Shown: one piece after another, positions 34,828 to 50,301 of the stretch
How positions within the stretch are numbered: the stretch's first letter is position 1
Layout of the letters: each line of letters starts with the position of its first letter
DNA from: Pseudomonadales bacterium
GTDB taxonomy: Bacteria; Pseudomonadota; Gammaproteobacteria; Pseudomonadales; Azotimanducaceae
Assembly (NCBI GenBank): GCA_028285415.1
Contig: JANQPF010000026.1
Location: 1-64,000 of the forward strand
DNA: 64,000 nt
Direction: 5' to 3'
Made by a program: the position numbers and the translations under genes
The notes under the pieces: generated by a model
Seen by the model: the letters and a program-made list of their open reading frames with translations, nothing else
Told to the model about the DNA's origin: nothing
The model's database searches: none

Positions 34828-35007
34828 ATGAACGACAACCCCTTCGACAACGACGACCTCAACCCCCACGGCCTCCCCGACGAGGAAAAAGGCAACTTTC
34901 ACGGCTGGCGCCTTCTCGGTGTCATCTTCATCGTGGTCGTCGTCCTGGGGCTGATCTCCGCCGCCGTCGACATCATCGTCATCGGCCCGCTGGAAGGCAG
35001 AATCTAA
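34828..35007 (+). CDS. Small single-helix membrane protein, 59 aa
   Basis: ATG 34828 begins MNDNPFDNDDLNPHGLPDEE, an acidic cytoplasmic segment, followed by one membrane helix (about residues 28-48, rich in Val/Ile) and a short tail ending LEGRI. Codon use fits the core genome. The last four bases overlap the convergent LLM oxidoreductase gene. There is no strong ribosome-binding site, and the family is unrecognised. It is likely real because of its coherent protein character. Confidence 0.55.
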   Translation: MNDNPFDNDDLNPHGLPDEEKGNFHGWRLLGVIFIVVVVLGLISAAVDIIVIGPLEGRI

Positions 35008-36095
35008 CCTGCCGACTGTCGCTCGGCGTCCCGCGCCGCGACCTTTTCCCGGATTGCCGGAATCAGCTCCCTGCCGTACTCGACGGTGTCGTTGAACGGA
35101 TCAAAGCCGCGGATGAGCACGCCACTGATGCCCAGGTCGTAGTACTTCGCAATGGCTTCAGCCACCTGGTCCGGCGTCCCGACCAGCGCGGTCGTGTTGC
35201 CGCTGCCTCCCGCGGCTGCCGCCAGCGGTACCCAGAGGCGCTCGTCCTGCACTTCACCGTCCTCAATGAGGCGGGACAGCCGCCGCGCCGTCTCAGCCTC
35301 CGGCGTTCTCGCTCTGAGCTTGTCCGGCTCCCTGCCCTGCTGCACGCCGGCAAGAATCTGCTGCGCTTTGTCCCAGGCGGCACCCTCCGTATCCGCAATG
35401 ATTGGCCTGAAGGAGACGTTGAACTTCAGCTTGCGCTGGTGGGTTGCCGCTACGCCGTTCAGGCGCGCCATCAGCTGTGCCACATTGGCGCGCGGTTCAC
35501 CGAAGAGTGCGTAGGTGTCGCAGTGTTTTGCGCCGACCGGGATGGCCGCTTCCGACACGCCGCCAAACCAGAGCGGCACGTGCGGGTCCTGTACGCCACG
35601 GACCTCTGAACTGGCTTTGCGGACCTGGTAAAACTCGCCGTCGAAATCGAATGGAGAATCGCTGGTCCACACTTTGCGCATGATGCTCAGATACTCGTCG
35701 GTGCGGCGATAGCGTTCGTCGTGGCCGAGAAAGTCTCCGTCCCGTCGCTGGTCCGCGTCCACGCCGCCGGTGATGATGTGCAGCCACAGCCGCCCGCCGA
35801 TCAGATTGTCGAGGGTTGCCACGCGCCGCGCCGCCTGCGTGGGGGCCGCAAAGCCAGGTCGATGCGCCAGCAATATCTTCAGGTGCTCAGTCTGATACGC
35901 CGCGTGTTGCGCAATCAAAAAACCATCGGCGGAGCTCGAGCTGTGACCGATCAGGATGGCGTCGAACCCCGAGTTCTCGTGCGCCTGTGCAAACCCGGTG
36001 ATGTAACCGGCGTCAACGCCGCCGCCGACGATGTGCACCGTAGAGGCGGAACTCGGCGGGGCCACGCCAATCATGCCGAGTATGTTGATAGGCAT
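35004..36095 (-). CDS. LLM-class flavin-dependent oxidoreductase (SsuD-like)
   Basis: This 363-aa protein has the bacterial-luciferase TIM barrel: FAQAHENSGFDAILIGHSSS near residue 39, RVATLDNLIGGRLWLHIITG near 95, and GTPDQVAEAIAKYYDLGISG near the end. Members use FMNH2 and O2, for example to desulfonate alkanesulfonates or oxidise aldehydes (family knowledge). ATG 36095 is chosen because GGGAGG lies upstream; the frame extends to 36179 without support. It is on the same strand as the RyR/TrkA gene, 22 bp downstream of it. Confidence 0.88.
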   Translation of the reverse strand: MPINILGMIGVAPPSSASTVHIVGGGVDAGYITGFAQAHENSGFDAILIGHSSSSADGFLIAQHAAYQTEHLKILLAHRPGFAAPTQAARRVATLDNLIGGRLWLHIITGGVDADQRRDGDFLGHDERYRRTDEYLSIMRKVWTSDSPFDFDGEFYQVRKASSEVRGVQDPHVPLWFGGVSEAAIPVGAKHCDTYALFGEPRANVAQLMARLNGVAATHQRKLKFNVSFRPIIADTEGAAWDKAQQILAGVQQGREPDKLRARTPEAETARRLSRLIEDGEVQDERLWVPLAAAAGGSGNTTALVGTPDQVAEAIAKYYDLGISGVLIRGFDPFNDTVEYGRELIPAIREKVAARDAERQSAG

Positions 36096-36117
36096 AGGTT
36101 TCCTCCCTGCCGCGGCG

Positions 36118-38520
36118 TTAGCCCGCGGATTCCTCACGTGTGTCGATGCCGGCACGCTGCCCGGACGGGTCTTCGCCACCGGGTATCGAGACGACCCGCG
36201 GTCGTGTCATTTCCGTCGGTGCAAAAAAATGGCCGCTGAAGGCAAACTCCGGCGGCACCCCACCCTCTTCCCGCCAGCGGACAACGTCACCGGTACCCCC
36301 AATGCCGCGCGCGTCTTTGCCATCCCACACGGCGATGAGCTCGTGGGAACGACTCACGATGTAGGCCCCAGCCAGAGCGTATTGCCGCGCTCGCGCCATC
36401 TCGCCTTCCGCGTCATCCCGTTCGAGAAGCTGTGCGCCACCGAAGCGCAGCGGCATCTCAAAGTACAGACTGGCACGGCCGACAAACCGCTGAAACTCCT
36501 CGTTCGACTCTTCGTTGCTGAGATCATCAGCGTGGCCAAACGAGCGCTTGTAGATTTCATACGGCAGGGGTAGTGCCACGATGAGCGATGCGTTCAGCGT
36601 GTCCAGCGCAAGGTCGGCCACCAGTCGATCGCTGCCGTCCGCCAACGCGGACAACACCGCAAAGTCTGCACCAGGGTGCTGATAGGCGATCTTTTTCAGC
36701 TGCTCGTGGACCTGGCGCTCGACGTAGGCTTTGTGTTTGATCAGCCGGTGCGCGCGGTGTCCCGTGATGCCGATGATGATTTGCTTGGAAATGCCAAGGT
36801 CCAGCTTTTCGGCGAGTAGATTCGGTAGCTCCCGCACGGAAGCCAGGTCATAAGCCCGCTCCTGTGCGCTCGAATCCGCCCAGCGCTTCAAGCCCGGGTG
36901 CACCCGCGCGAGGTCGCTGCGGTATTCCGCGTAGCGCCAGCCCAGCGATGCCTTTTCGGCGTTCCAACGGTTCTTTTCGATCCGTGCGAGGCGTTCGATT
37001 TCAGCATCCTCGAACGCAAAGTTGATGTGCTTGCGTACCAGCCGGTATCCGCCGGCGCGAAGCTTGGTCGGAATGTGATCAGCGAGTGCCCGGCTGTCGT
37101 TGCGGAACATCTCCGGCAGCTGCCCCCAGGGTCGGTGAGAGGCTTGAGCCACGTCGTGCTGCGCGACTTCCTCGAGGTATTTTTCATGCAGCGCAATCGC
37201 CAGCTGATCAAGATGCTCGTTGATGACCCGGTCCACACGCATTAGCTGTTCGACGGTGCCAAACGGAAACAAGCCGTCGGGGATCTCCGGATTGCCGCGC
37301 CCCGACTCCACCAGCTGCGCCAGTCCCCGGGAGTTGCGCAGGGCGACAAACACCGGTGCGTTGGGTACTGCCGCCAGCAGGGTCAGCTGTCGAAACGCCA
37401 GCGCCAGACTCATGTTGTCCGCATCGCTTTCGAGACAGGTCACAATCATCGTTGCGTCCTGCAGATTCAGCTCCGCGAGGTCGCGGCGGATGAATTCCGG
37501 AGCGAGTTCGGTGCGTCTGAACCGCACCTCAGCGGCCAGCGCCATCTGCGGACACTGCTGCGCAAACAGCTCCGCTTCGCTGTCCGCGTCCGGATCGAGC
37601 ACGGTGACTATGAGCGGTTGATCGTTGCCGTAGTGCGCTTGCTTGAGTGCGGTAGAGACAATGTGCTTACCCAGGTGGCCATAGCCCACTACGACAATAT
37701 GCACGCCAGCAAAACCGAGCGCGTCCGCGTACACGTCAGGAAGGTAGTCCCTAAAAAGCGTACGCGCCGCCTGCTCGTCCAGATTGAAGAACCGGACCTC
37801 CATGCGTTGCGGATGCTCGAAAAACTTGGGGTAAGACTCGAGGCGGCTGCCGAGCTGCATGTCAGTGACCTGCAGAATCACCTTCAGCGGTGGTCTACTG
37901 GCAGCGCGCGCGGTCTCCACCACTTCCTGGATACGCAACGACAGCTCGACGTTGTCGTCGTCGACGTTGATGAAAGAAATCAGACATCGAGCGCGATGGA
38001 TGCGAGCCCGGCGCAGAAGTTCACCCTGTTTCCCGTCACCGAGTAACACAGGAACGAACATGGCACGACAGGCGGCAAGGTGTGGGTTTGTCGTATCGCG
38101 TTCGAGCACCACTACCCTGAGCCTGCGGCGCCGGCAGCTGTGAATGAGCACCATGGCGGCGTCTGATAAGCCGACGATCACCACGTGGTCCTGATACAGA
38201 CGCACGCGCATATTGATGAAGCCGGTCCAGATGCCCTCAGCGAAGAGCAGGATGAGCGAAGTGACGGTGATGACCGGGGCCAGAAACCGGGCAATTTCGA
38301 GCGCCAGCGGCAGCCGCTCGTAGCCGGCGGTCCAGTCACCTTCAGCGGCGAAAAGCTGCACCACCCTGTAGACATAGTCCGCGGGTTGGGCAAGAAAACC
38401 GTCGGGATCGAGCTGGTACGCGCCGTAGATACCCAGGCCGAATATGACGCCCAGGGCTATCAAGATGAAACGGCCGCGATTCACCGACAAGGCGCGCTCT
38501 CCCCTACGAAGCAAAGCCAT
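36118..38520 (-). CDS. TrkA-N / RyR / SLOG-like fusion membrane protein
   Basis: This 800-aa protein has two N-terminal membrane helices (about 18-36 and 75-95). Two Rossmann TrkA-N (RCK) domains follow, with VVIVGLSDAAMVLIHSC near 108 and GVHIVVVGYGHLGKHIVSTA near 272. An RyR domain lies around 510-565 (ASLGWRYAEYRSDLARVHPG). The C-terminal part starts IIIGITGHRAHRL and contains FAVLSALADGSDRLVADLAL, a DprA/SLOG-type nucleotide-sensor look. ATG 38520 is the start; further upstream the frame is only antisense of tRNA-Ser and SRP RNA. The architecture suggests a ligand-gated ion channel or stress sensor (inference). Confidence 0.75.
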   Translation of the reverse strand: MALLRRGERALSVNRGRFILIALGVIFGLGIYGAYQLDPDGFLAQPADYVYRVVQLFAAEGDWTAGYERLPLALEIARFLAPVITVTSLILLFAEGIWTGFINMRVRLYQDHVVIVGLSDAAMVLIHSCRRRRLRVVVLERDTTNPHLAACRAMFVPVLLGDGKQGELLRRARIHRARCLISFINVDDDNVELSLRIQEVVETARAASRPPLKVILQVTDMQLGSRLESYPKFFEHPQRMEVRFFNLDEQAARTLFRDYLPDVYADALGFAGVHIVVVGYGHLGKHIVSTALKQAHYGNDQPLIVTVLDPDADSEAELFAQQCPQMALAAEVRFRRTELAPEFIRRDLAELNLQDATMIVTCLESDADNMSLALAFRQLTLLAAVPNAPVFVALRNSRGLAQLVESGRGNPEIPDGLFPFGTVEQLMRVDRVINEHLDQLAIALHEKYLEEVAQHDVAQASHRPWGQLPEMFRNDSRALADHIPTKLRAGGYRLVRKHINFAFEDAEIERLARIEKNRWNAEKASLGWRYAEYRSDLARVHPGLKRWADSSAQERAYDLASVRELPNLLAEKLDLGISKQIIIGITGHRAHRLIKHKAYVERQVHEQLKKIAYQHPGADFAVLSALADGSDRLVADLALDTLNASLIVALPLPYEIYKRSFGHADDLSNEESNEEFQRFVGRASLYFEMPLRFGGAQLLERDDAEGEMARARQYALAGAYIVSRSHELIAVWDGKDARGIGGTGDVVRWREEGGVPPEFAFSGHFFAPTEMTRPRVVSIPGGEDPSGQRAGIDTREESAG

Positions 38521-38591
38521 TGTAACTTGGTTTTCGTGCCGCGCATTCGGTATTAATCCAAAAGCAATTCCGCTAGCATACGCGGCCCTAT

Positions 38592-38705
<114 letters not shown>

Positions 38706-38707
38706 CG

Positions 38708-38795
38708 GAGAGGTGTCCGAGCGGTCGAAGGAGCACGCCTGGAAAGTGTGTATAGGTAACCCCTATCGAGGGTTCGAATCCCTCCCTCTCCGCCA
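38708..38795 (+). tRNA. tRNA-Ser (anticodon GGA)
   Basis: This 88-nt class II tRNA has acceptor GGAGAGG pairing with CCTCTCC, a D-arm with GAGCGGTCGAAGG, anticodon loop CTGGAAA (GGA), a long variable arm (TATAGG/CCCTAT region), T-arm GAGGGTTCGAATCCCTC and encoded CCA. It follows the SRP RNA by 2 nt and is followed immediately by a strong hairpin. Confidence 0.95.
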
Positions 38796-38832
38796 AATTT
38801 GAGAGCGGCCCGTTCGGGCCACTCTCAAATTT
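38795..38832 (+). terminator. Long hairpin terminator after tRNA-Ser
   Basis: The arm AAATTTGAGAG-C-GGCCCG, a TT loop and CGGGCC-A-CTCTCAAATTT form an almost perfect stem of about 18 bp with one mismatch. It starts on the last A of the tRNA CCA and ends in TTT. Confidence 0.88.
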
Positions 38833-38839
38833 ACCGCAG

Positions 38840-38977
38840 AGGGAGGAAACTGATTCGCCCCTCCGGGTTCGACCCGCAGCGCCTCAGGCGCGAAGGGAAC
38901 GAGCACGGCAGCAAGCTGCCGCGCGCAGCCCGCAGGGCGACGATCGCGCGAGAAGCGCGACCGTCGTAATCCCTCCC
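38840..38977 (+). ncRNA. Post-tRNA structured repeat, copy B
   Basis: This copy lies 7 nt after the tRNA-Ser terminator. A GGAGG/CCTCC hairpin comes first. The core (38866-38977) then begins GGTTCGACCCG and has GCGCCTCAGGCGC, GAAGGGAACGAGCACG, GGCAGCAAGCTGCC, GCCCGCAGGGC and CGACGATCGCGC/GCGCGACCGTCG. It ends AATCCCTCCCT, identical to 11 nt of the neighbouring tRNA-Ser. Compared with copy A, paired stem positions change together (GGTGGC/GCCACC to GGCAGC/GCTGCC; TGAG/CTCA to CGACG/CGTCG), which supports selection on RNA structure. Confidence 0.6.
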
Positions 38978-39038
38978 TTCCCGAATCACCCAACCTCCTT
39001 CCATCCACCAACAACCCCTCCCCAACTCCAACACCTCC

Positions 39039-39074
39039 CCCCACACACCCCACACACCCCACACACCCCACACA
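39039..39074. repeat. Four tandem 9-bp units CCCCACACA
   Basis: CCCCACACA is repeated exactly four times (39039-39074) in a C/A-rich stretch upstream of the lipoprotein gene. It is probably a replication-slippage microsatellite; an effect on promoter spacing is possible but not shown. Confidence 0.7.
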
Positions 39075-39197
39075 AACCCACGAACGTCAAATTGCTTCAT
39101 CACCCGCAGACACAATTGCGTAATAGTACGTAACAGCGTTCGCAACAATTATCAGGCAGAATAGGCACCTCACCCCGACCAACAACAGGTTCAATTC

Positions 39198-39482
39198 ATG
39201 CTCAGAACTTTCGTTATCTTCATTACCATTGCCATTCTCGGCGGTTGCGCATCGTCTTCAGCGACCACCGATCGTCTCGATGCCCTGGAGCGTCAGCTTG
39301 GCGATGTGCAACGCACGGCGGATCAGGCGCTGGAAACAGCCAGAGAAGCACGCAGCGCAGCGGCAGGCGCTTCGGACTCGGCCTCTGAAGCACAGAGACT
39401 GGCACGGCAGGCGCTCGACGCTGCCAACGAAGCATCCGAGCGCGCCATGCGCATCGGCGAAGAGTGCTGTAACGGCAAGTAA
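39198..39482 (+). CDS. Lpp/OprI-type alanine-zipper outer-membrane lipoprotein
   Basis: This 94-aa protein has a lipoprotein signal with lipobox LGGC (Cys near residue 17) followed by SSSATT. A continuous heptad coiled coil rich in Ala follows (LDALERQLGDVQRTADQALE, LARQALDAANEASERAM). It ends in Lys, the residue that Lpp uses for covalent attachment to peptidoglycan (family knowledge). Length and composition resemble OprI. The unusual ECC just before the end could add a disulfide. The next gene, convergent, encodes an L,D-transpeptidase, the enzyme class that makes this attachment. Confidence 0.8.
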   Translation: MLRTFVIFITIAILGGCASSSATTDRLDALERQLGDVQRTADQALETAREARSAAAGASDSASEAQRLARQALDAANEASERAMRIGEECCNGK

Positions 39483-39507
39483 GCCTTGAGGACCCGCGCC
39501 CGTGATC

Positions 39508-40425
39508 TCACCGGGTCACGGGTGTGGGGATTCCGGTCCCGGCCCGCGCAATCTGCAGAACCCGGTCCCAATCGACATCGGCTGGACGGTCACGCGTCGC
39601 CTGCAACAGCTGACGCACGGCATCGGTATACGATGACGTTGTCGTGTGCGCCTCGAGATACAGGATCCCATCACGCCAGCCGGCTTTGAACGGCTGCTTC
39701 ACCACCTGCACCGGCGTCCCGTTGGGTACCGCCCGTACCAGGGCTTGAATGTCATCGTCATACATTCGTATGCACCCCGATGAGACCCTCCGACCCACCC
39801 CTATCGGTTGGTTCGTGCCGTGGATGAAGTACCCGGCCCGGGCCAGCTGGATGGCCAGGCTGCCGAGCGGGTTGTCCGGTCCTGGCGGCACGACGCGCGC
39901 CAGTTCTTCACCGTTTTCCGCATGCCGGGCAAGGACCGACTCCGGCGGATACCACGTTGGATTTTCGAGCTTGGCAACCGTCTGTGTTTTCATGACGGGC
40001 GTTTCGCGACCCTCACTGCCGATGCCAATCGGGTACACCGAAACGAGCGCTTCTTGCGGATCGAAGTAATACAGGCGCAGTTCGCTGAGATTGATGACAA
40101 TGCCGTTGCGCGGCGCATCCGGCAGCAACATCGACGTGGGCAAAACAACGTCGGCCCCGGTGCCCGGCAGCCAGGCGTCGACGTCCGGATTGGCACGGAG
40201 CAGCGCGTCGTAGCCGACCCCTTCTTCCCGTGCGATCGTGGCAAACGTATCCTCGTAGTGCGTGACACGATTGCGCACTTCTCCCAGCACGATGTCCTGC
40301 TCCACCTGCAGCTGGAACACGATGGCATGCGCCGCCGGACCCAGGACGGCAACACAGAGTGCAGCCATGATCGCGAGGGCCCGGGGCCCCATCGATGGTG
40401 ACAATTGTGTATGCGTTGATGTCAT
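39508..40425 (-). CDS. Periplasmic L,D-transpeptidase (ErfK/YbiS type)
   Basis: This 305-aa exported protein has a signal peptide ending GPAAHA, a short LysM-like segment (DTFATIAREEGVGYDALLRA), and a YkuD catalytic domain with HGTNQPIGVGRRVSSGCIRM near its end, where His and the Cys of SGCIRM are catalytic. Such enzymes cross-link peptidoglycan or attach Lpp to it (family knowledge). ATG 40425 is preferred because AGGAAG is 9 nt upstream; ATG 40446 is the alternative. It is convergent with the Lpp-like gene, 25 bp apart. Confidence 0.9.
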   Translation of the reverse strand: MTSTHTQLSPSMGPRALAIMAALCVAVLGPAAHAIVFQLQVEQDIVLGEVRNRVTHYEDTFATIAREEGVGYDALLRANPDVDAWLPGTGADVVLPTSMLLPDAPRNGIVINLSELRLYYFDPQEALVSVYPIGIGSEGRETPVMKTQTVAKLENPTWYPPESVLARHAENGEELARVVPPGPDNPLGSLAIQLARAGYFIHGTNQPIGVGRRVSSGCIRMYDDDIQALVRAVPNGTPVQVVKQPFKAGWRDGILYLEAHTTTSSYTDAVRQLLQATRDRPADVDWDRVLQIARAGTGIPTPVTR

Positions 40426-40495
40426 AGCGGCCAGCTTCCTGCCCATAGCGTGAAAGTCAAGAACGTCGCGGTTCTGCGCACCGCCACGTTACACT

Positions 40496-40765
40496 GTGAT
40501 CACGGGTATGCAAGACTGGCGTTCGATGAGCAAGCACAAACAAAAACTCCGCCGTTTTCTGAGCCGGGTCAATCGCGCCGTCACCGAGGTAGGCATTGAG
40601 CACTTCGACGACGACCGCGACTGGGATGCGCGGGTGAAGCTGCCGGAATGGCAGCTGGCCAGGCTGAAAGCGCGTCACGAGGCACGCCTCGCCAAAGGGC
40701 GTTTGTCGCCACCTTCATCGCCACCTTCGTCGCCACCTTCGTCGCCACAGAAGAAACCCGACTGA
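40496..40765 (+). CDS. Small basic hypothetical protein with SPP repeats
   Basis: The frame of up to 89 aa starts at GTG 40496; ATG 40508 or 40526 (MSKHKQKLRRFLSRVNRAVT) are equally plausible. The protein is basic and helical with a tail made of three SPPS units from a 12-bp tandem DNA repeat (40706-40741), then QKKPD. No family is recognised. It diverges from the L,D-transpeptidase gene and is convergent with the GNAT gene. Confidence 0.5.
   Translation: MITGMQDWRSMSKHKQKLRRFLSRVNRAVTEVGIEHFDDDRDWDARVKLPEWQLARLKARHEARLAKGRLSPPSSPPSSPPSSPQKKPD
40706..40741. repeat. Three tandem 12-bp units in a coding region
   Basis: TCGCCACCTTC plus A or G is repeated three times in frame, encoding SPPS units. 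The 12-bp period keeps the frame when copy number changes, so the protein tail length may vary between strains. Confidence 0.7.
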
Positions 40766-40805
40766 TCCGTTCGATACCCGCGCCGGTGTCACCAGGCGCG
40801 CGAGG

Positions 40806-41228
40806 TTAATCGTCGCTCAGTTTCTTGGCCAGATGGTATTGCGTGTGCCCGGCTGGAAAACCCTCACAGGCGCCGTACACCCGATAGCCCAGGCGCTCGT
40901 AAAACCCGCGCGCTTCAAACTCGAACGTGCTGAGGCGCGCACTGTCGCAGCCCTGTCTGCGGGCCAGCGTTTCCGCCTGCTCTACCAGGCGACGGCCGAG
41001 ACCAAGACCCCGGTCGATCTCCCGCACCCAGAGAGTGCCAATCTGCAGCCACTCCCAGACCATATCTCCGGTCACGCCGCCAACCACCTCACCTTCCTCA
41101 TTGCGCGCAACGAGAGCAAATTCCCGAGTCTTGCGCGGACCGGTGACGGCATCGGCGAACTCCAGCAGACCCGCCTCGACCGTCCGGATGGCTTCCGTAC
41201 TCGGCGCATCGTCGAAGATATAGCGCAT
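40806..41228 (-). CDS. GNAT-family N-acetyltransferase
   Basis: This 140-aa protein shows the GNAT core: a beta strand LWVREIDRGLGLGRRLVEQA with the acetyl-CoA-binding R-x-x-G-x-G/L region, then ARRQGCDSARLSTFEFEARG and FYERLGYRVYGACEGF. ATG 41228 is chosen because GGGAG lies 7 nt upstream; the frame can be extended to 41300 without support. The substrate is unknown. It is divergent from the selenoprotein candidate, 171 bp away. Confidence 0.87.
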   Translation of the reverse strand: MRYIFDDAPSTEAIRTVEAGLLEFADAVTGPRKTREFALVARNEEGEVVGGVTGDMVWEWLQIGTLWVREIDRGLGLGRRLVEQAETLARRQGCDSARLSTFEFEARGFYERLGYRVYGACEGFPAGHTQYHLAKKLSDD

Positions 41229-41399
41229 GTTGAGCTCCCGCGATGTTGGTTCAGCCGGGAGTGTAGACCATCGTCCAGCTTCCGGTCGCCGGGATTTCAC
41301 CCCTACTCTTCACTGGCGCTTCACCTGCTATCGGTACCGTGGCGACTCTGGCACGATAGGGTGCAAACGCGAGCAATGGCGAGCAAACGGGAGCAAACC

Positions 41400-42494
41400 A
41401 TGACCATAGTACTGACTGAAACCTCGAACAGTGAATGCGTGGCAGCGCCTTCGACAACCGACCTGTGGCTCGACGCCGACGCAGTCACCGCGGCGACCGG
41501 TTGGACGCTGAAACCCGAAGGCTTCTGCAAGGACGACATCTGCGTTCCGACGCCCGCGGACGCCGAAAACTACGTTGCCGATGGCAAAGTGAACGTCGCA
41601 AGCTTCTGGCGCCTCATGGACAGGCCAGCCGCGGCCAGCAAAGACGGTGACGTCTGGTTTCTTGGCGAAGGCGCTACCGAGCGCAACGACGCGCTCTTGA
41701 GCCTCGAAGCGCCGGACTTCACCCTGCCCGATTTCTCCGGCAAGTTGCATTCCCTGACTGATTTTCGTCGCCAGCGCGTACTGCTCATCACGTGGGCGTC
41801 GTGGTGAGGATGCCGTCATGACCTGCCAGGTTGGCAGGCACTCTACGAGACGGTCAAAGACGAAGACTTCATCATCGTATCCGTGGCGATGGACGCGGAT
41901 GTCGAGGCTGCGCGTCCGTGGGTGGCAGAAGCATCACCCACTTTCATCACGCTCATCGATCAAAACCACCTGCTGTCGTCCCTCTATAACATGGTGAACG
42001 TACCTCAGGCGGTATGGATCGACGAGCAGGGTCGCGTGGTCCGCCCGACGGAAACCGGTGGTTCTATCGACATCCTGCGCGAATTCGATCCAGAAGCCGG
42101 CGCGTTCAAGCCTGAAGCCATGGCGCGTGCCGGTGCTGCCAAAGCGCTCTACATGGAGGCAGTCGAGGACTGGGCCCGGAACGGCGCCGATAGCCGCTTC
42201 GCGTACGATCCCGATGCCGCCCGCCAGCGCGTCTCCCGGCAAACGCCGGAAACCATGCTCGCCCACGCCAAGTTTCAGCTTGGGCGACATCTTGCGTCCC
42301 TGGGGCGCGTCGTTGAGGCGGAAGCGCTTTTTACCGAATGCCGCGAGCTGCATCCGGATTCGTGGAACATCTTTCGCGAAACCACGGAAAAAATGGATAC
42401 GGGCATTGCTGCGGGTGAGGCGTTCTGGGGCAAGGTCATGGGGCTTGGCGAAAAACAGTACTACGCGTCAATTGACATGGACGGTATGCCCTGA
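41400..42494 (+). CDS. Thioredoxin-like (ResA/AhpC-TSA) protein with predicted selenocysteine
   Basis: From ATG 41400 (GGGAG seven bases upstream) the frame runs to 42494 except for one TGA at 41805-41807, giving 364 aa with position 136 read as selenocysteine. Up to the TGA it encodes a domain with FCKDDICVP and then APDFTLPDFSGKLHSLTDFR and VLLITWASW. Right after the TGA it continues GCRHDLPGWQALYETV, FIIVSVAMD, LIDQNHLLSSLYNMVNVPQA and VWIDEQGRVVRP, all normal for a thioredoxin fold. The TGA replaces the active-site Cys, giving W-A-S-W-U-G-C-R. A SECIS-like hairpin starts 14 nt after it. It is likely a cytoplasmic thiol or peroxide redox enzyme. Confidence 0.82.
41805..41838 (+). promoter_or_regulatory. 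UGA selenocysteine codon with bacterial SECIS-like hairpin
   Basis: After the UGA (41805-41807) and a 14-nt spacer comes CCTGCC, loop AGGTT, GGCAGG (41822-41838), a perfect 6-bp stem. The loop holds the G-U dinucleotide that SelB recognises in bacterial SECIS elements. The distance from UGA to loop (about 21 nt) is within the range known for such elements, as in fdhF. Confidence 0.78.
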
Positions 42495-42593
42495 AGCCCG
42501 GCCGCTGGCGACAAGACCCGCCCGGCAACATTTTGACGAGCATCTATACTGAAATCAGGCTAATGCAATCTGGGCGCGGCAGCGCTTCTTGCC

Positions 42594-43283
42594 ATGGAAT
42601 GGTCCGTATTTGCAGTTCTACAGATGTTCATCATCACCGTTGGTGTGAGCGTCGCGCTGTGGCTGCGCATACGCGCCGTCAACCAGCAGAACGCTGAGCT
42701 GCGTGCGCAATTCGACGATCTGGAGACGACGCAGGAAGAAGCGACCGCGGCACCGGAGGCCTGGCTTCAGGCACAGCTCGCGGCGCTTGCCCCAGATGAC
42801 CCGACCGCCGCCGTGCGCAGGGTTGTGCTCGAGCAGACGCTCAACCCGGCCGACGATTTCCCCGAGCGCCTCAGCCAGGCGGTTGCGGCGGCCGGGCTCG
42901 TTCCGGAGCTCGACGCCGACGGCACTGATCTGCAGGCGCAGATTGCAGCGCTGGAAACAGAGCTTGCCGCTTCCCGGGAAGGTCAGAGCACGGAGCACGC
43001 CGAAGAACTCAAAGCGCTGCTGCAGCAGTTTACGCGCGACAGCCGCGAGATGATGGCGTGCATTCAGACGCTCGAATCGGAAAACGCAGAGCTGCGCGAG
43101 CTGCTCGGCGACAAGGCGCCACCTATCGCATCGCCGCCCGCCGAGGCCGAACCTTCATCATCACCTGCTGCAGAGACCGAACCGGCCGATAGTGTGAGCG
43201 AGCCCGATGCGGCTGAGCTGCTGACTGCGGAGACGGCGTCCGGCAGTGAAGACGAGGCACCCGAAGCCGAAACAGCCGCCTGA
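42594..43283 (+). CDS. Membrane-anchored coiled-coil protein, hypothetical
   Basis: This 229-aa protein has one N-terminal membrane helix (about residues 5-24), a coiled-coil region (AVNQQNAELRAQFDDLETTQ and later LQAQIAALETELAASREGQS, MACIQTLESENAELRELLGD), and an acidic Pro/Ala/Glu-rich disordered tail. No family is recognised. It lies 100 bp after the selenoprotein candidate on the same strand and 2 bp before the acyltransferase gene, so it may be co-transcribed with the latter. Confidence 0.65.
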   Translation: MEWSVFAVLQMFIITVGVSVALWLRIRAVNQQNAELRAQFDDLETTQEEATAAPEAWLQAQLAALAPDDPTAAVRRVVLEQTLNPADDFPERLSQAVAAAGLVPELDADGTDLQAQIAALETELAASREGQSTEHAEELKALLQQFTRDSREMMACIQTLESENAELRELLGDKAPPIASPPAEAEPSSSPAAETEPADSVSEPDAAELLTAETASGSEDEAPEAETAA

Positions 43284-43285
43284 GG

Positions 43286-44077
43286 TTGCGGTGCGCTTGC
43301 CAGCAGGGCGCTCTGTCTGTAAAGCTGGGAAAACACTCTCACGCCCGTACCGCTTTGCGACACGATCACCGCCCCTACGCGCTCAAGCGTTTTCTCAACG
43401 TCATCGAAAACGCGTGGATCCGTCACTTCGTCTCACCCCAGCTGGAAGGTCTGGGATCCGGCAGCCTCATCATGAAACCGTGGTATCTGCATCTGCACGG
43501 AGCTGGCATCCACTTCGGCGATGCCGTTCACGTCATTACCTCGCGCGATAGGACCGTGCGCCTGACGACCTGGCAACACGAGAACGGCGCTGGCGAGATA
43601 CACGTGCACGATCATGCGCTCCTCTGTCCCGGCGTGCGTATCGACGCAGCCAGCAGCGTCATCGTCGGCCGCGGTACGATGCTTGCCGCCGGAGCTTATC
43701 TGACCGATGCCGACTGGCACGGCATTTATGAGCGCGCGAAACCCATCGGCGAGACCCGGCCGATTGTCCTCGGCGAGAACGTGTGGATTGGTGACGGCGC
43801 TATCGTCTGCAAGGGCGTTGAAATTGGCGACAACACCATCATCGGCGCGGGTGCGGTAGTGACCAAATCCATGCCCGCAAACGTGATCGCCGCGGGCAAT
43901 CCGGCCGCCGTCGTCAGAACGCTCGACGAGGGCCGTAGCTACGTGACCCGCAGCGATCTACTTGCCGATCATGACAAGCTAACCCACGACATAGAGCTGC
44001 TGGATCGAGCTCTGCGCAAGGACAATTCCTGGTGGGGTTGGCTGCGCTCGCTTCTGGCGCCGCGCAGGGACGACTGA
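43286..44077 (+). CDS. Hexapeptide-repeat (LbH) acyltransferase
   Basis: This protein of up to 263 aa has a left-handed beta-helix core. Hexapeptide turns run from ALLCPGVRIDAASSVIVGRG through AAGAYLTDADWHGIYERAKP to ENVWIGDGAIVCKGVEIGDN and IIGAGAVVTKSMPANVIAAG. The His in DADWHG is a plausible catalytic residue. Members move acetyl or acyl groups onto sugars or other small molecules (family knowledge). The start is uncertain: TTG 43286 gives the full frame, but the family-like part begins only near YALKRFLNVIENAW. It follows the coiled-coil gene by 2 bp and converges on queF. Confidence 0.82.
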   Translation: MRCACQQGALSVKLGKHSHARTALRHDHRPYALKRFLNVIENAWIRHFVSPQLEGLGSGSLIMKPWYLHLHGAGIHFGDAVHVITSRDRTVRLTTWQHENGAGEIHVHDHALLCPGVRIDAASSVIVGRGTMLAAGAYLTDADWHGIYERAKPIGETRPIVLGENVWIGDGAIVCKGVEIGDNTIIGAGAVVTKSMPANVIAAGNPAAVVRTLDEGRSYVTRSDLLADHDKLTHDIELLDRALRKDNSWWGWLRSLLAPRRDD

Positions 44078-44078
44078 G

Positions 44079-44924
44079 TTATTGGCGCGGCAGCCGACAG
44101 AGCGGCGCGCTGTCTTCGTGCGTTGAGCGAAACGGATTGATGTCCAGCCCGCCGCGACGCTGGAAACGACCGTATACGCTCAGCTGGCGCGGCCGGCAGG
44201 TGTGCAGGATGTCGAGATAGATCTGCTCAATGGTGGTCTCGTGGAAAGCCTGATGATTGCGGTAAGAGATGAGGTACTTCAGCAATCCATCGCGCGCGAG
44301 GGGCGCACCTTGATATTCCACCAGCACCGACGCCCAGTCGGGCTGCCCGGTCACCGGACAGAGACTTCTGAAGAGGTGCGTGTAGAGGGTCTCGTGCACC
44401 ACGTGTTCGGTTGCTCCTGGATCTTCCACGGAAAGGAGCAATGGATCGCGCTCGTAGGTATTGGTGCGAACGTCCAAATCGTCGAGGCAAACGCCGGAGA
44501 ACTGATGCACGGGCAGCTCGAGCTGGACCAGATCGAGAAGCTCGAGCATCACCGGACCGCGGTAAGCCAGCGTGAGGTCCTGGTCGAGGGTTTTCAGCAC
44601 CTCGGTGTGGCTCTCGAACTTGGTCATCGAAAAACTGTTGAGATAGAGCTTCAGCGATTTGCTCTCGACAATTGCCCGTGAGTGACACGGTACGTGCAGG
44701 CGCAGACCGGTCACCTGAGGTTTACCGTCGGTGTTCAGCCACGAGAACTCATAACCGGTCCAGAGATCTTCGCCTTTGCATTCACTCACCTCGACGCCGG
44801 CCTTCGCACGGGCGACCGCACGGTCCATCGAGTGCAGCAGCGACGGCGTATAGGTTGACGGATAATCGCTCGTCTGGCCGAGCGGGCCTTCATCCAGCGT
44901 GGTCATGGAGGGCGAATTGCTCAT
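44079..44924 (-). CDS. queF: NADPH-dependent 7-cyano-7-deazaguanine (preQ0) reductase
   Basis: This 281-aa protein has the bimodular length of the E. coli-type QueF. The NADPH-binding motif is ESKSLKLYLNSFSMTKF, the catalytic Cys lies in SLCPVTGQPDWASVLVEYQG, and the second module has LISYRNHQAFHETTIEQIY. It reduces preQ0 to preQ1 in queuosine biosynthesis for tRNA (established family function). It converges on the acyltransferase gene and has no other queuosine genes nearby. Confidence 0.95.
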   Translation of the reverse strand: MSNSPSMTTLDEGPLGQTSDYPSTYTPSLLHSMDRAVARAKAGVEVSECKGEDLWTGYEFSWLNTDGKPQVTGLRLHVPCHSRAIVESKSLKLYLNSFSMTKFESHTEVLKTLDQDLTLAYRGPVMLELLDLVQLELPVHQFSGVCLDDLDVRTNTYERDPLLLSVEDPGATEHVVHETLYTHLFRSLCPVTGQPDWASVLVEYQGAPLARDGLLKYLISYRNHQAFHETTIEQIYLDILHTCRPRQLSVYGRFQRRGGLDINPFRSTHEDSAPLCRLPRQ

Positions 44925-45025
44925 ACGCTCAAAATCTACTACATGCGCACCTGCACTCTACCAAAGCGCCCTGCAAGGGCCATCGCAGCCCGATGAACGG
45001 TAGCGAAACCGGCGCAGTTGGCATG

Positions 45026-45418
45026 CTATTGCAGATTTTTCTGTAAAGCTTGTTGCAAGACTTCCACCGCTTGAGAGGCGCGTCCGGTTTCGTTCAACGC
45101 ATCGGCCAGCATGAGACTCGCGGCGTTGCGGACCACCGGACTTTTGGTTTTGTCCACCACGTCGCGCAGTATCTTGATGGCCTCGGCGCGATCGCCGCGC
45201 TGCTTGTAGATCTCTTCGATTTTCTGCAGCTGCAGGATGGCGCTCTTGTCAGGGTCGCTTGCCACCTCGTGGATATCGCCGATGATGCCGTAGTAACCCT
45301 GCATGACGGCCATGAATTGCTGCATGCGTTCGAGCTCCGGCTCCTCGGCGGCGTGAACCGCACCGAGGGGCAGACAAAGCGTGAGTATCAGTACGGTTCT
45401 GCGAAGGTATGAGCGCAT
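45026..45418 (-). CDS. Exported TPR-like small protein
   Basis: This 130-aa protein has a signal peptide ending GAVHA before AEEPE. The mature part is entirely helical with TPR-like pairs (LQKIEEIYKQRGDRAEAIKI and LMLADALNETGRASQAVEVL). It is the third gene of a minus-strand series after an ECF sigma factor and a small membrane protein, so it may be part of that regulatory unit or a target of it. No precise family is assigned. Confidence 0.65.
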   Translation of the reverse strand: MRSYLRRTVLILTLCLPLGAVHAAEEPELERMQQFMAVMQGYYGIIGDIHEVASDPDKSAILQLQKIEEIYKQRGDRAEAIKILRDVVDKTKSPVVRNAASLMLADALNETGRASQAVEVLQQALQKNLQ

Positions 45419-45439
45419 CTCGTTCTCCTTGGAATCATT

Positions 45440-45784
45440 TCAGAAAGTGGTTGGAATCGACGGGGCGGGCGGCAACGTCGGCACCCTTGTGACCCCGCTC
45501 AAGTCTGGTTTTGCAGGCAGGCTGAGGCGGGAAACGCTCAGCTGCCCCAGCTCACCGGTGTAGGCGGTGACCGCTGCGGGTGATGGGAGGGTTTGCACCC
45601 TCTCGTCGCCCTGGTCCCGGGGCACGAAAAGCGCTGCCGCCGCAACGAGCACGAACGACGCCATGGCCGCAGCAGGCGCAAACGATCCGGGTTTCGCGCG
45701 TGTCTGGTAGTCACCGACGAGCTCAGCGCCTAGCGCAGCCGGGGCACGCATGCGTTGATAGTCTTTGCGTAAATTTTTACTCAT
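45440..45784 (-). CDS. Single-helix membrane protein, putative anti-sigma partner
   Basis: This 114-aa protein has an N-terminal cytoplasmic segment of about 35 residues, one membrane helix (about 36-53), and a Pro/Ser-rich periplasmic tail (LPSPAAVTAYTGELGQ ... PTLPPAPSIPTTF). Its ATG overlaps the TGA of the sigma factor gene (45781-45784). Position and layout suggest an anti-sigma factor, but the N-terminal domain is too short for a clear zinc-binding ZAS domain and lacks its Cys/His motif. The role is inferred from position. Confidence 0.6.
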   Translation of the reverse strand: MSKNLRKDYQRMRAPAALGAELVGDYQTRAKPGSFAPAAAMASFVLVAAAALFVPRDQGDERVQTLPSPAAVTAYTGELGQLSVSRLSLPAKPDLSGVTRVPTLPPAPSIPTTF

Positions 45785-46338
45785 CGTTCCTCAATCTGTT
45801 CCTTGTCTATGCCCCAGGCCTCGAGCAGTGTGCGCAGATTTGCGCTCGCCTTGGCGAGATGCGCTTTGACCGTGCCTTCCCGGCAGCCCATGACCGCTGC
45901 CGTATCGCGCACTGACAGCTCCTCCAGCAGACGCAGTACCACCACGTCTCTCTGCCGTGCAGGCAGTGCCGCCAGCGCCTGGTTCAGGTAGGCCGGCAGG
46001 TCTGCTTCGCGTACGTCCGCCGCCGGTAGCTCGGCAACGGCGTCGGCATCGGTACCACGCGGCTGGCGCCGGTTGAGCTCCAGACAAACGTTCCTGCACA
46101 CCCGGATCAGCCAGGTTGACGGTGCCGCCCGGAAACGGAACTGGCCGAGGCCGGTGTAGCTGCGTAAGAACGCCTCCTGCACCGCATCCTGCGCGAGCTC
46201 GCGATCGCCAAGCCAGACGCTTGCGAGTCGGTACAGGCGATCTCGATGGCGTTCGCTGAAGAGCGCAAACGCCGCATCGTCACCCCGCTGAAAGCGCCTC
46301 ACCAATTCTTTGTCCGAGTGATTCCGCATTAACATCAA
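45781..46338 (-). CDS. ECF-family RNA polymerase sigma factor
   Basis: This 185-aa protein has region 2 (VRRFQRGDDAAFALFSERHR, then DRELAQDAVQEAFLRSYTGL and FRAAPSTWLIRVCRNVCLEL) and region 4 (LPARQRDVVVLRLLEELSVR, then DTAAVMGCREGTVKAHLAKA, the -35 helix-turn-helix). This is the SigE/RpoE-like ECF layout. It overlaps the downstream putative anti-sigma gene by an ATGA. The regulon is unknown. Confidence 0.92.
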   Translation of the reverse strand: MMLMRNHSDKELVRRFQRGDDAAFALFSERHRDRLYRLASVWLGDRELAQDAVQEAFLRSYTGLGQFRFRAAPSTWLIRVCRNVCLELNRRQPRGTDADAVAELPAADVREADLPAYLNQALAALPARQRDVVVLRLLEELSVRDTAAVMGCREGTVKAHLAKASANLRTLLEAWGIDKEQIEER

Positions 46339-46413
46339 TAACTTAGGGAGCCTCGCCGCAGCGGATCCTCAAGTATTAGTGCAGCCGCGTGCATAAAGGT
46401 TTACTCTGCCGCG

Positions 46414-47832
46414 TTGTCGTATCACCGGGTCTTGCACTTGATCGAGCAAATCGAGACTGTCGCTACCACCATCGCGGAATGGGCCTGGGGTCCCTGGCTC
46501 CTGGTGCTCCTGCTGGGCGGTGGTCTCATGTTTCTGGTGCGCTCCCGGTTCATCCCATACCGCTATCTCGGTCATGCCCTGGATCTCATTCGCGGAAAGT
46601 TTGACGACGAACACGATCCCGGGCAAATCAGTCATTCGAGAGCGCTGTCCGCCGCCCTCGCGGGCACCATTGGCATGGGCAATATTGCCGGCGTGGCGCT
46701 GGCGATTGCCATTGGCGGACCCGGGGCCATCTTCTGGATGTGGATGACGGCCATCGTCGGTATGGCAACGAAGTTTTTTACCTGCTCGCTTGCGGTCATG
46801 TATCGGGGCAAGGATTCGAACGGCGACCTGCAGGGTGGGCCCATGTACGTCATTCGCGAAGCCTTACCCCGCAAGATGCACTTTCTGGCGTATCTCTTTG
46901 CCATCGTCGGGCTGATCGGCTGCCTCCCGGCTTTGCAGAGTAACCAGCTGGTACAAATTTTTCGCGACCTGGTCTTCATTGAATACGGCTGGCTGGCGAC
47001 GGGGGCTGACCCCTTCTATTTCAACCTCGGTAGCGGCTTCGTGCTGGCCACCGTCACGGCGCTGGTCGTCTTCGGCGGCATCACCCGGATTGCGAGGGTG
47101 GCCGTTGCCCTGGTCCCGAGCATGTCGCTGCTTTACGTCGGTTCCGCGGTGCTCGCCATCGTCATGCACTACGAGCAGGTTCCGGCGGCGCTGGGGATCA
47201 TCTTCTACGACGCGTTCACCGGCGAGGCGGTTGCCGGGGGCGGACTGCTCGCAATGATTCTGTACGGCGTACAGCGAGGGGCGTACAGCAACGAAGCCGG
47301 CATGGGCACCGAGTCACTTGCACACGGCGCCGCCCGCACTTCCGAACCCATCCGTGAAGGACTCGTCGCGATGCTGGGACCGGCCATCGACACGCTTCTC
47401 ATCTGTACCGCAACCGCCATCATGATTCTGGTCTCAGGCGTCTGGCAGAACGGCGATGCCACCGGCGTCACGCTCACCGCCGCAGCGTTCAGCACGCTGA
47501 TGGGACCGCTGGGTACCGTCATCGTGTTTGTCTGCGTCCTGTGTTTCGCCAGCACAACGGTGTTCACCTACTCGTTCTACGGCGCGCAGTGCACCTCATT
47601 TCTCTTTGGCGCGCCCAACAAACGTATTTATCTTTTCGTCTACGTCAGCTTCATTCTCGTCGCCTCGGTCATTTCCATCGACGCGGCGGTCAGCATCATC
47701 GATGCGAGTTTTGCGCTCATGGCAATCCCCACCATGGTGAGCGCAATCTGGCTGGCGCCCAGGGTCATCACGGCGGCTGATGACTACTTTGCGCGCCTGC
47801 GCAGCAACACGAAAGAAGCCACAACGCGCTAA
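46414..47832 (+). CDS. Sodium:alanine/glycine symporter (AGCS family)
   Basis: This 472-aa protein has about eleven membrane helices. The conserved AGCS segments include LSAALAGTIGMGNIAGVALA, GGPGAIFWMWMTAIVGMATK, GDLQGGPMYVIREAL and GAYSNEAGMGTESLAHGAA. Members import alanine, glycine or related amino acids with Na+ (family knowledge), which would fit a sodium-using cell with an Oad pump. The frame opens at TTG 46414; internal TTG codons at 46432 and 46438 are possible starts. Confidence 0.9.
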   Translation: MSYHRVLHLIEQIETVATTIAEWAWGPWLLVLLLGGGLMFLVRSRFIPYRYLGHALDLIRGKFDDEHDPGQISHSRALSAALAGTIGMGNIAGVALAIAIGGPGAIFWMWMTAIVGMATKFFTCSLAVMYRGKDSNGDLQGGPMYVIREALPRKMHFLAYLFAIVGLIGCLPALQSNQLVQIFRDLVFIEYGWLATGADPFYFNLGSGFVLATVTALVVFGGITRIARVAVALVPSMSLLYVGSAVLAIVMHYEQVPAALGIIFYDAFTGEAVAGGGLLAMILYGVQRGAYSNEAGMGTESLAHGAARTSEPIREGLVAMLGPAIDTLLICTATAIMILVSGVWQNGDATGVTLTAAAFSTLMGPLGTVIVFVCVLCFASTTVFTYSFYGAQCTSFLFGAPNKRIYLFVYVSFILVASVISIDAAVSIIDASFALMAIPTMVSAIWLAPRVITAADDYFARLRSNTKEATTR

Positions 47833-47841
47833 GCTAAGGGC

Positions 47842-50301
47842 ATGGCTTCTTCCCAGGATACAATGACAACCCAGAACGGCTGGCTGAGCGACTATCAGGT
47901 TCCGGCGGACGCCTGGGACGAGCTGGGCCGCGGCTCGCCAGCGCCGCACTGGGCGCGAATCCTCGACTACTTCGCCCGTGACGGAGAGCTGAGCGATGCA
48001 CCTCAGCCTGAGCATCTGCGCGCAGAAATGCTGGTCAGGGATCTGGACGTGGAGCGGCCCACGCGCCTCGACCCCCTGCCTTTTGTCATCGATTCCGGCG
48101 AATGGCAACAGCTGGAGAACGGTCTCACCCAGCGAGCAACCCTGCTGAATCACATCATTGCGGATCTCTACGGCCGCCGCACGCTCTTGAGCCCCGCGGG
48201 TTTGCCGCCCGCCCTCGTGTTCGGTAACCCGCGCTATCTGCTGCCCATGGTCGGCTCGCAGCCGCGCGCGGATACGTACCTGAACCTGGTGGCGTTCGAC
48301 GTTGGCCGCTCAGCCGACGGGCAATGGCGGGTGCTGGCAGACTGGACCGAGGCGCCCGAAGGCCTCGGCATGTGTCTCGAAAATCGGGTCTTGTCCGGGC
48401 AGGCGCTGCCGGAGATCTTTCAACAGGCAAACACGCAGCGGCTGGCCGCCTTCTACCGGGGTTTTGCACAGCACCTGTCCGGGCGTGCGCTCGAGATCAT
48501 CGCTGACGGTATCACCGTGACCTTGAGTCCCGGGCCGGACCATCCGAGCTACTTCGAGCACGCCTATCTCGGACAGTATTTTGGTTTCCCGGTGGTGGAA
48601 GGCGCGGACCTCACGGTACGCGGCGATACGCTGCAGCTGAAGACACTCGAGGGATTGAAGCCCGTGGGCAGCGTGATTCGTCACACCGCCGGACATCTCT
48701 GTGATCAACTCTACCTGCGGGCAGACACCCGCGACGGTGTGCCGGGTCTTGCCAACATCAGCCGTTCGGGTGCGGTGCACATTGCCAACGCCCTGGGCGC
48801 CGGTGTGCTGGAAAACGACGCTTTCATGAGCTTTCTCCCCGGGCTTGCCCAGACGCTGCTCGGACAGGATCTCATCCTGCCGAGCCTGGCTACCTGGTGG
48901 TGCGGTCAGGCAGAAGAAGCCGCGTACGTCGAGGCACACGCGCAATCATTGCACGTGGGCCCGGCGTTCGCCCGTCCGGAGCTCTTTGCCGGTCGGATCG
49001 AGTCGTATTCGCAGGCGGCAAGCTTCGATGCCCCGGCGCCGTTTCAACAGGTTGGGCGGGAGCTGATTCGCGCGTCACACACGCCGTACATCAACGGCGA
49101 CGGCAAGCTCGCGGCGGGGCCGACGGTGCTGCGTCTCTTTGTTGGTATGACCGATGCCGGTTATTGCCTCATGCCGGGCGGCATAGCGCGTGTGCAGACG
49201 CCGGACGGGGAAATTGCCAAAGACATCTGGGTCAGCGCTGACGCCGTGACGCAGGTACCCAGCGTGGCGGGTAGCGTTGCCGCGACCGGCGCGCGACGCC
49301 GCTCGGACCGCGACCTGCCGAGCCGCACGGCGGATGACCTCTTCTGGCTGGGCCGGTATCTCGAGCGCTGTGAAGGCGCCATCCGCACCTATCGATGCCT
49401 CTTGAGCCACATCACGGAAGGCTCGACGGAGGACCAGCTGCTCGTGCTGCAGACGGTGGGGCAGCTGCTCGTGGACCTCGATATGCTCTCACCCGCACAA
49501 GCGCGCCAGCTGGCTCGGGTTGATGCCGAACAGATACTCGCGCGCCAGTGGTGGTCAATGCTCTTCAACCCGGAAAGCAGCGACGGCCTTTTCCGCCTCC
49601 TCGACAACATTCACCGTCTGGCAAGCCAGGTCCGCGAGCGCCTGTCCGGTGATGCCTGGCGCATGTTCAAGCGACTGTCCGAAACGCCCCACGAACAGCG
49701 TTGGCGCCTGAACAACGTCAGCGAAGCACTGCAGCTCATGGACCAGTTCATTGAGCGCCTTTCGGGCTTGAACGGACAGATCCAGGAGAACATGACCCGC
49801 AGCTACGGCTGGCGGCTGCTCGAGCTCGGCCGACGCCTGGAACGCGGCCAGTTTGGTCTCACCGTGCTGGACGCGCTGGTGCAGCAGGCTTCGAGCAGCA
49901 CCTACCTCTATCTCCTCCTGGATCTGTCCGACAGCACGATCACCTATCGGGCGCGGTATCAGAGCACGCCGGTCCTCGAAAACCTGCTGCATCTGCTCCT
50001 CCTGGATGACTCCAATCCGCGCAGCATGGTCTATCAGATTCAGCGCCTGCAGCGGGTCATGGCTGACATGCCGCTCGAGCAGCAGCAGGAAGGACTGAGC
50101 GACGCACAGCGCATTCTGCTGGTGGCCTATCATGAGCTCCTGCTGTCTGAGCCCGAGAAGCTTGCGAACGTCATTTCGAAAGCCGGTAACCGCACGCAGC
50201 TCAGGCGCGTGCTGACCCGGCTGGGCAATACCCTTTCATCCCTGTCCGAGCAGGTGACCGAAACCTACTTCGCCCACACGGACAGTGAGCGCAGGCTGTG
50301 A
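47842..50301 (+). CDS. Circularly permuted ATP-grasp fused to alpha-E domain
   Basis: This 819-aa fusion has a circularly permuted type 2 ATP-grasp domain in the first 480 residues (LNHIIADLYGRRTLLSPAGL, TYLNLVAFDVGRSADGQWRV, ISRSGAVHIANALGAGVLEN, LPGGIARVQ-like end). An alpha-E (DUF403) helical domain follows from about 490 (SRTADDLFWLGRYLERCEGA to EPEKLANVISKAGNR). ATP-grasp, alpha-E and transglutaminase-like genes occur together in a widespread bacterial system thought to make and process a peptide modification (family knowledge; product unknown). The transglutaminase gene overlaps its end by a GTGA. Confidence 0.9.
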   Translation: MASSQDTMTTQNGWLSDYQVPADAWDELGRGSPAPHWARILDYFARDGELSDAPQPEHLRAEMLVRDLDVERPTRLDPLPFVIDSGEWQQLENGLTQRATLLNHIIADLYGRRTLLSPAGLPPALVFGNPRYLLPMVGSQPRADTYLNLVAFDVGRSADGQWRVLADWTEAPEGLGMCLENRVLSGQALPEIFQQANTQRLAAFYRGFAQHLSGRALEIIADGITVTLSPGPDHPSYFEHAYLGQYFGFPVVEGADLTVRGDTLQLKTLEGLKPVGSVIRHTAGHLCDQLYLRADTRDGVPGLANISRSGAVHIANALGAGVLENDAFMSFLPGLAQTLLGQDLILPSLATWWCGQAEEAAYVEAHAQSLHVGPAFARPELFAGRIESYSQAASFDAPAPFQQVGRELIRASHTPYINGDGKLAAGPTVLRLFVGMTDAGYCLMPGGIARVQTPDGEIAKDIWVSADAVTQVPSVAGSVAATGARRRSDRDLPSRTADDLFWLGRYLERCEGAIRTYRCLLSHITEGSTEDQLLVLQTVGQLLVDLDMLSPAQARQLARVDAEQILARQWWSMLFNPESSDGLFRLLDNIHRLASQVRERLSGDAWRMFKRLSETPHEQRWRLNNVSEALQLMDQFIERLSGLNGQIQENMTRSYGWRLLELGRRLERGQFGLTVLDALVQQASSSTYLYLLLDLSDSTITYRARYQSTPVLENLLHLLLLDDSNPRSMVYQIQRLQRVMADMPLEQQQEGLSDAQRILLVAYHELLLSEPEKLANVISKAGNRTQLRRVLTRLGNTLSSLSEQVTETYFAHTDSERRL

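Follow-up and report, generated by a model that had tools for sequence, protein, structure and literature searches.

A redoxin gene with an in-frame TGA in a Pseudomonadales bacterium, very probably a selenoprotein of the UGC-containing kind

The stretch analysed here, referred to as the window, is the first 64 kb (64,000 nucleotides) of contig C34 (JANQPF010000026.1) of a Pseudomonadales bacterium, whose 5.97 Mb assembly in 34 contigs is 99% complete and 3.2% contaminated. Judging from its sequence, the gene at 41400-42494 very probably encodes a bacterial selenoprotein belonging to the UGC-containing (WAxxUGC) redoxins, with an in-frame TGA read as selenocysteine (Sec). Support comes from conservation of the TGA codon, the Sec machinery of the genome, synonymous constraint at a hairpin following the codon, a ResA-like fold and four invariant redox residues. 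The features of the gene are collected in Table 1.

The TGA codon and the selenocysteine machinery

The only internal stop in the frame is the TGA of codon 136, which takes up the first redox position within LITWASW-[TGA]-GCRHDLPGW; 228 sense codons lie between it and the normal stop, which is also TGA. A first-pass annotation made from the letters alone had described one TGA at the active site with the frame open beyond it, and translation bears this out. Its expectation that standard gene callers would miss the gene or split it fits a plain open reading frame (ORF) listing, which yields two pieces, 40833-41807 and 41883-42494, and no whole gene. Two such pieces would also be left by a pseudogene in which a nonsense mutation cuts the protein at residue 135. 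This alternative is extremely improbable, since the frame past the TGA is open both in the window gene and in the homologues that were fetched, and the residues downstream of the codon are strongly conserved. Homologues can be aligned from about the same start through to the end of the protein.

In 97 related genomes, 52 matches with an E value no higher than 2.0e-30 were listed; 48 of them contain an internal TGA (three of these 48 also hold TAA or TAG) and four are free of stops. A second scan, of a genome collection, gave 33 loci. The equivalent of codon 136 was inspected in 63 loci (30 of the 97-genome matches and the 33 collection loci, including three duplicates) and found to be TGA in 60 and TGC in three, or 57 and three in the 60 distinct loci when the window's own is counted. 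Homologues with Cys, which the first-pass annotation had proposed looking for, are thus present, and no unrelated residue occurs at the position. The two residues that follow are Gly-Cys in all 60 distinct loci, so that the U-G-C or C-G-C centre lacks one residue relative to C-x-x-C. In a 60-row tree the Cys forms fall in three separate places, L025 on a long branch, which fits repeated exchange between Sec and Cys. In wider samples searched at E 1e-40, covering 274 genomes of the class and 398 of the phylum, the family was found in one further genome per sample beside the window's own (G219 and G524, respectively). Both carry TGA at the equivalent codon as well as selA, and G524 is a single-contig genome.

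The first-pass annotation had named a sequencing error as one way in which its reading could fail, codon 136 then being TGC or TGT and the protein an ordinary Cys redoxin. The TGC of three homologues is in keeping with such an error, but TGA recurs across separate assemblies, a single-contig one among them, at 57 of the 60 distinct loci, which makes it very unlikely, and the synonymous constraint directly after the codon also speaks against it; we give a sequencing or assembly error next to no weight.

The window's own genome contains a second family gene (L086, G000:C23:17873-18907) with TGA at the same codon, 40% identical and in a deep, separate clade. Genome G043 has selB and combines the Cys form L025 with a family gene that holds an internal TGA on a different contig (G043:C387:13014-13931), which offers a natural setting for comparing Sec with Cys forms.

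A check for the Sec genes, also proposed by the first-pass annotation, found all four in the window's assembly above their cut-offs. On contig C4, selC (73.6 bits, gathering threshold 47; tRNA-SeC with anticodon TCA according to ARAGORN), selB (408.8 bits, cut-off 242) and selA (523.4 bits, cut-off 268) adjoin one another; selD scored 271 bits (cut-off 125). As a control, 14 genomes were scanned with the same models, and the cut-offs were passed by selC in five, selB in two, selD in two and selA in one. Among the 97 genomes, selB was above its cut-off in 28 of the 32 with a TGA-bearing family gene versus 25 of the 65 without, an association for which the Fisher test treats related sequences as independent. 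For the 33 collection loci, three of whose genomes appear to recur in the 97-genome set, selB was found in 31 of 32 TGA genomes. It was absent over the cut-off from the one Cys genome (G129, with form L083), in which selA was also not found over its cut-off and the tRNA-Sec hit, at 47.6 bits, lay just above the threshold of 47. Genome G089, with two family genes lacking internal stops, of which the one checked (L030) has TGC, showed no selB over the cut-off and no selA match.

The few TGA genomes without a selB match over the cut-off could be explained if UGA were read without SelB as another residue, for example Trp or Cys. We consider this very improbable, because TGA also serves as the normal stop of the gene, Cys alone replaces it among the 60 loci, and the genome of the window holds the full Sec set.

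Close to selC lies a tyrosine-integrase-like ORF (L017:2229-3488, G000:C4; translation judged by eye), which looks like part of an element integrated at the tRNA-Sec gene.

Table 1. Coordinates of features of the redoxin gene, numbered as in the window
Feature	Position	Strand	Basis or remark
Shine-Dalgarno-like GGGAG (putative)	41389..41393	+	6 nt 5' of ATG; from the letters of the sequence
Selenoprotein gene (very probable)	41400..42494	+	ATG to TGA stop; 364 aa; Sec at residue 136; translation
N-terminal domain, residues 1-98	41400..41693	+	no Pfam match over cut-off; confident alpha/beta model
Cys43, first Cys of invariant C-x4-C	41526..41528	+	28/28 aligned rows
Cys48, second Cys of invariant C-x4-C	41541..41543	+	28/28 aligned rows
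AhpC-TSA/redoxin (thioredoxin-fold) domain	41706..42041	+	residues 103-214
In-frame TGA, very probably read as Sec136	41805..41807	+	TGA in 57/60 distinct loci, TGC in 3
Cys138, partner of Sec136 in U-G-C	41811..41813	+	28/28 aligned rows
Candidate SECIS hairpin CCTGCC / AGGTT / GGCAGG	41822..41838	+	sequence, fold, synonymous constraint; base pattern changed in 3 Cys forms
Pro202 of conserved NVPQ loop	42003..42005	+	N200, V201, P202, Q203 invariant in 28 rows
C-terminal helical, TPR-like region, about residues 238-347	42111..42440	+	helices in model; TPR_14 E 0.0015, below its cut-off

The hairpin downstream of the TGA

According to PMC1088965, the bacterial Sec insertion sequence (SECIS) is characterised by a stem-loop right after the UGA with a small apical loop containing a G. 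The hairpin at 41822-41838 has these features. It starts 14 nt 3' of the TGA, with the 6-bp stem and AGGTT loop that the first-pass annotation had given, and in the predicted fold an extra A-U pair closes a GGU loop.

Codon choice over the hairpin is narrow. Pro is encoded by CCA or CCC in 35 of 36 cases versus 407 of 916 elsewhere, Ser by TCA or TCC in 20 of 20 (236 of 960 elsewhere), Gly by GGT in 15 of 16 (302 of 1275) and Val by GTG or GTT in 53 of 53 (730 of 1250), the rows counted being related to one another. When 222 residue-columns in 55 rows were ranked by synonymous entropy, the hairpin columns V144, G144 and P143 were the three lowest and five hairpin columns fell among the lowest eight; this rank test, like the Fisher test on codon choice, assumes independence of sequences that are related or of columns that lie next to each other. 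None of the three Cys rows keeps the codon pattern of the TGA rows, and one of them (L030) hardly folds. Relative to synonymous recodings of the same nine codons, the mean z was -1.03 for the 55 TGA rows, -0.10 for 385 control windows from the same genes and -0.19 for the three Cys rows. The observed pairing of 89.6% was reached by none of 500 shuffles and the covariation score by five of 500, both measures being responsive to relatedness.

Several results tell against the selenoprotein reading, most of them concerning the hairpin. Its energy is unremarkable relative to shuffled sequences (z of -0.72 for 41805-41850 and -1.03 for 41795-41870), and just six of the 55 TGA rows pass 0.05 singly in the comparison with synonymous recodings. 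The Cys rows L025 and L083 retain irregular folds of -6.7 and -6.4 kcal/mol, energies that fall inside the spread of the weaker TGA rows; L025 (z -1.93) itself passes 0.05, with L083 at z 0.00. Covariation on both sides of the stem, assessed over 56 distinct rows and six pairs, was seen in two pairs, a value equalled in 228 of 500 shuffles. Outside the hairpin, the TGA genomes G009, G031, G032 and G057 have neither selB nor selC over the cut-offs. G057 contains a selA fragment ending at a contig edge, and no selA match was obtained in the fragmented assemblies of G009, G031 and G032 (82-96% complete, 90-520 contigs). The tRNA-Sec model, passing its threshold in five of the 14 control genomes, is the least specific of the four, and the selC call therefore also leans on anticodon and position.

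Weak covariation on both sides of the stem is expected, because an invariant Trp codon lies within the 3' arm. RNAalifold kept four pairs, none changed on both sides, and the register slid by +1 scored higher in covariation than the original (0.199 vs 0.157). A search of 41700-42000 against Rfam, with E values of up to 10 allowed, returned nothing, no dedicated SECIS predictor being applied. Since single-sequence energies and covariation are not significant, the SECIS claim rests on synonymous constraint. The likeness to bacterial SECIS elements put forward in the first-pass annotation is thus upheld by conservation and synonymous constraint, but folding energy alone would not have identified the element.

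In the WSSW clade and L050 (L032, L034, L036, L037, L040, L041, L043-L050), the lower stem of most predicted hairpins is interrupted by a bulged base, suggesting that the SECIS register there differs from that of the window gene.

Family placement, fold and proposed mechanism

The central domain matches PF00578 with 55 bits (cut-off 26). The NCBIfam profile NF041054 (WAxxUGC_long, 'ResA-like WAxxUGC') aligns over nearly its full length (residues 22-357 with profile positions 6-351 of 354) and the WAxxUGC motif is present as WASW-U-GC, but the score of 270.8 bits misses the curated cut-off of 300. Clade relatives behave alike (L022, 271.8; L024, 283.5; L055, 277.8; L059, 291.4), so that all five scanned clade members lie below 300, whereas L030, L039 and L042, in a clade separate from the window protein, score 440-538. 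Both TGA and Cys forms match the profile, and the 'ResA-like WAxxUGC' group that the first-pass annotation mentioned exists as this NCBIfam entry.

Selenoproteins of this kind have been published. Three sources list 'Prx-like (UGC-containing)' under pfam00578 with 46 in the sequence column (a 2008 Global Ocean Sampling study), 'UGC-containing Prx-like protein' with an accession (a 2022 review) and 'UGC-containing TlpA disulfide reductase family protein' (a 2026 review) (together, PMC2398784, PMC9312934 and PMC13188914). Judged from its sequence, the window protein fits the 'UGC-containing Prx-like' selenoproteins, with which it shares Pfam00578 and U-G-C when compared by description; as the published sequences were not compared, its membership rests on domain and motif. 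An N-terminal C-x4-C domain, which the window protein has, is not mentioned in the portions of these descriptions that were available. Of the 'probable new selenoprotein' in the first-pass annotation, the selenoprotein is supported and the novelty is not: since the family is already known, the window gene adds a further instance, from a clade scoring below the NF041054 cut-off, rather than a new kind.

The best sequence and fold matches are oxidoreductases of the ResA/TlpA/DsbE type, with which the protein shares a ResA-type thioredoxin-like fold. Pro202 is presumably the cis-proline expected of the thioredoxin fold. The protein differs from these enzymes in having Sec-x-Cys in place of C-x-x-C and additional N-terminal and C-terminal regions. 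By eye its N-terminus (MTIVLTETSN...) shows no hydrophobic stretch that would suggest a membrane anchor or export signal, and the protein is probably cytosolic. Literature searches by family name, none aimed at biochemical work, surfaced no functional study of the family. The protein is most likely a thiol/selenol oxidoreductase, and its sequence and modelled fold favour a thiol-disulfide oxidoreductase; the substrate may be a disulfide or a peroxide. The alternative for function, a selenium-dependent, peroxiredoxin-like peroxidase, is a serious but clearly less probable one. Against it stand the ResA/TlpA/DsbE-type best matches and the active-site signature PxxxT/SxxC of peroxiredoxins (AhpC/TSA, BCP), which by eye is absent from the window protein (TWASWUGC).

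The N-terminal domain, modelled alone, has a pLDDT (predicted local distance difference test) of 90.6, falling to 56 over the last ten residues, and structure comparison of residues 1-98 gave no clear PDB match. Its C-x4-C motif occurs in 61 of 63 loci, the exceptions (L076 and L077) beginning at a contig end. A profile of the domain searched against 58 genomes gave 26 matches, all 26 in family genes with an internal TGA (compared by eye), a pattern suggesting that the domain may work together with the Sec centre.

We propose that the hairpin would recruit SelB with Sec-tRNA (anticodon TCA), leading to insertion of Sec at position 136, around which the thioredoxin/ResA-like domain would fold with a Sec-Gly-Cys centre. 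Sec136, positioned where the active-site helix begins, would most likely attack a substrate disulfide or peroxide, and Cys138 would resolve the intermediate as a selenenylsulfide, to be re-reduced by an external thiol system or by Cys43/Cys48 of the N-terminal domain. CXC and UxC centres are more oxidising. A tentative and rather doubtful extension is an undescribed two-centre design, in which a C-x4-C domain of unrecognised fold, fused only to a Sec-Gly-Cys redoxin, might feed electrons to it within one chain, making a selenol relay that is complete in itself and whose Sec-x-Cys centre would be unusually strained and oxidising.

Gene neighbourhood and significance

Fourteen further genes of the window (35004-50301) were checked against loci L021-L083, which extend past the family gene by only about 1.5 kb in L021-L050 and by at most 4 kb in L051-L083. 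To the points already weighed against the reading it must be added that this comparison found no conserved neighbourhood pointing to a substrate. Leaving aside L021, which is the window's own stretch, weak matches to the luciferase-like gene (35004) were seen in L022/L052 (the same stretch), L042, L054 and L061, and the small gene at 40496 had one 40-residue match, in L022/L052. No function emerges from the context. Elsewhere in the window, a bacterial small signal recognition particle (SRP) RNA followed by tRNA-Ser(GGA) occupies 38601-38795; the minus-strand ORF listed at 36118-38796 overlaps both, and its start is therefore probably placed too far upstream.

The window gene is probably an unannotated member of a known selenoprotein family, and since ORF calling splits it and every clade member scanned scores below the NF041054 cut-off, the clade is probably mis-annotated. 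The family alignment provides a clear example of a SECIS marked by synonymous constraint. Added here is an N-terminal domain that has no Pfam or clear PDB match and bears an invariant C-x4-C. Together, the four invariant redox residues (C43, C48, U136 and C138) offer a testable mechanism for a family which the published descriptions, in the portions available, treat from sequence only.
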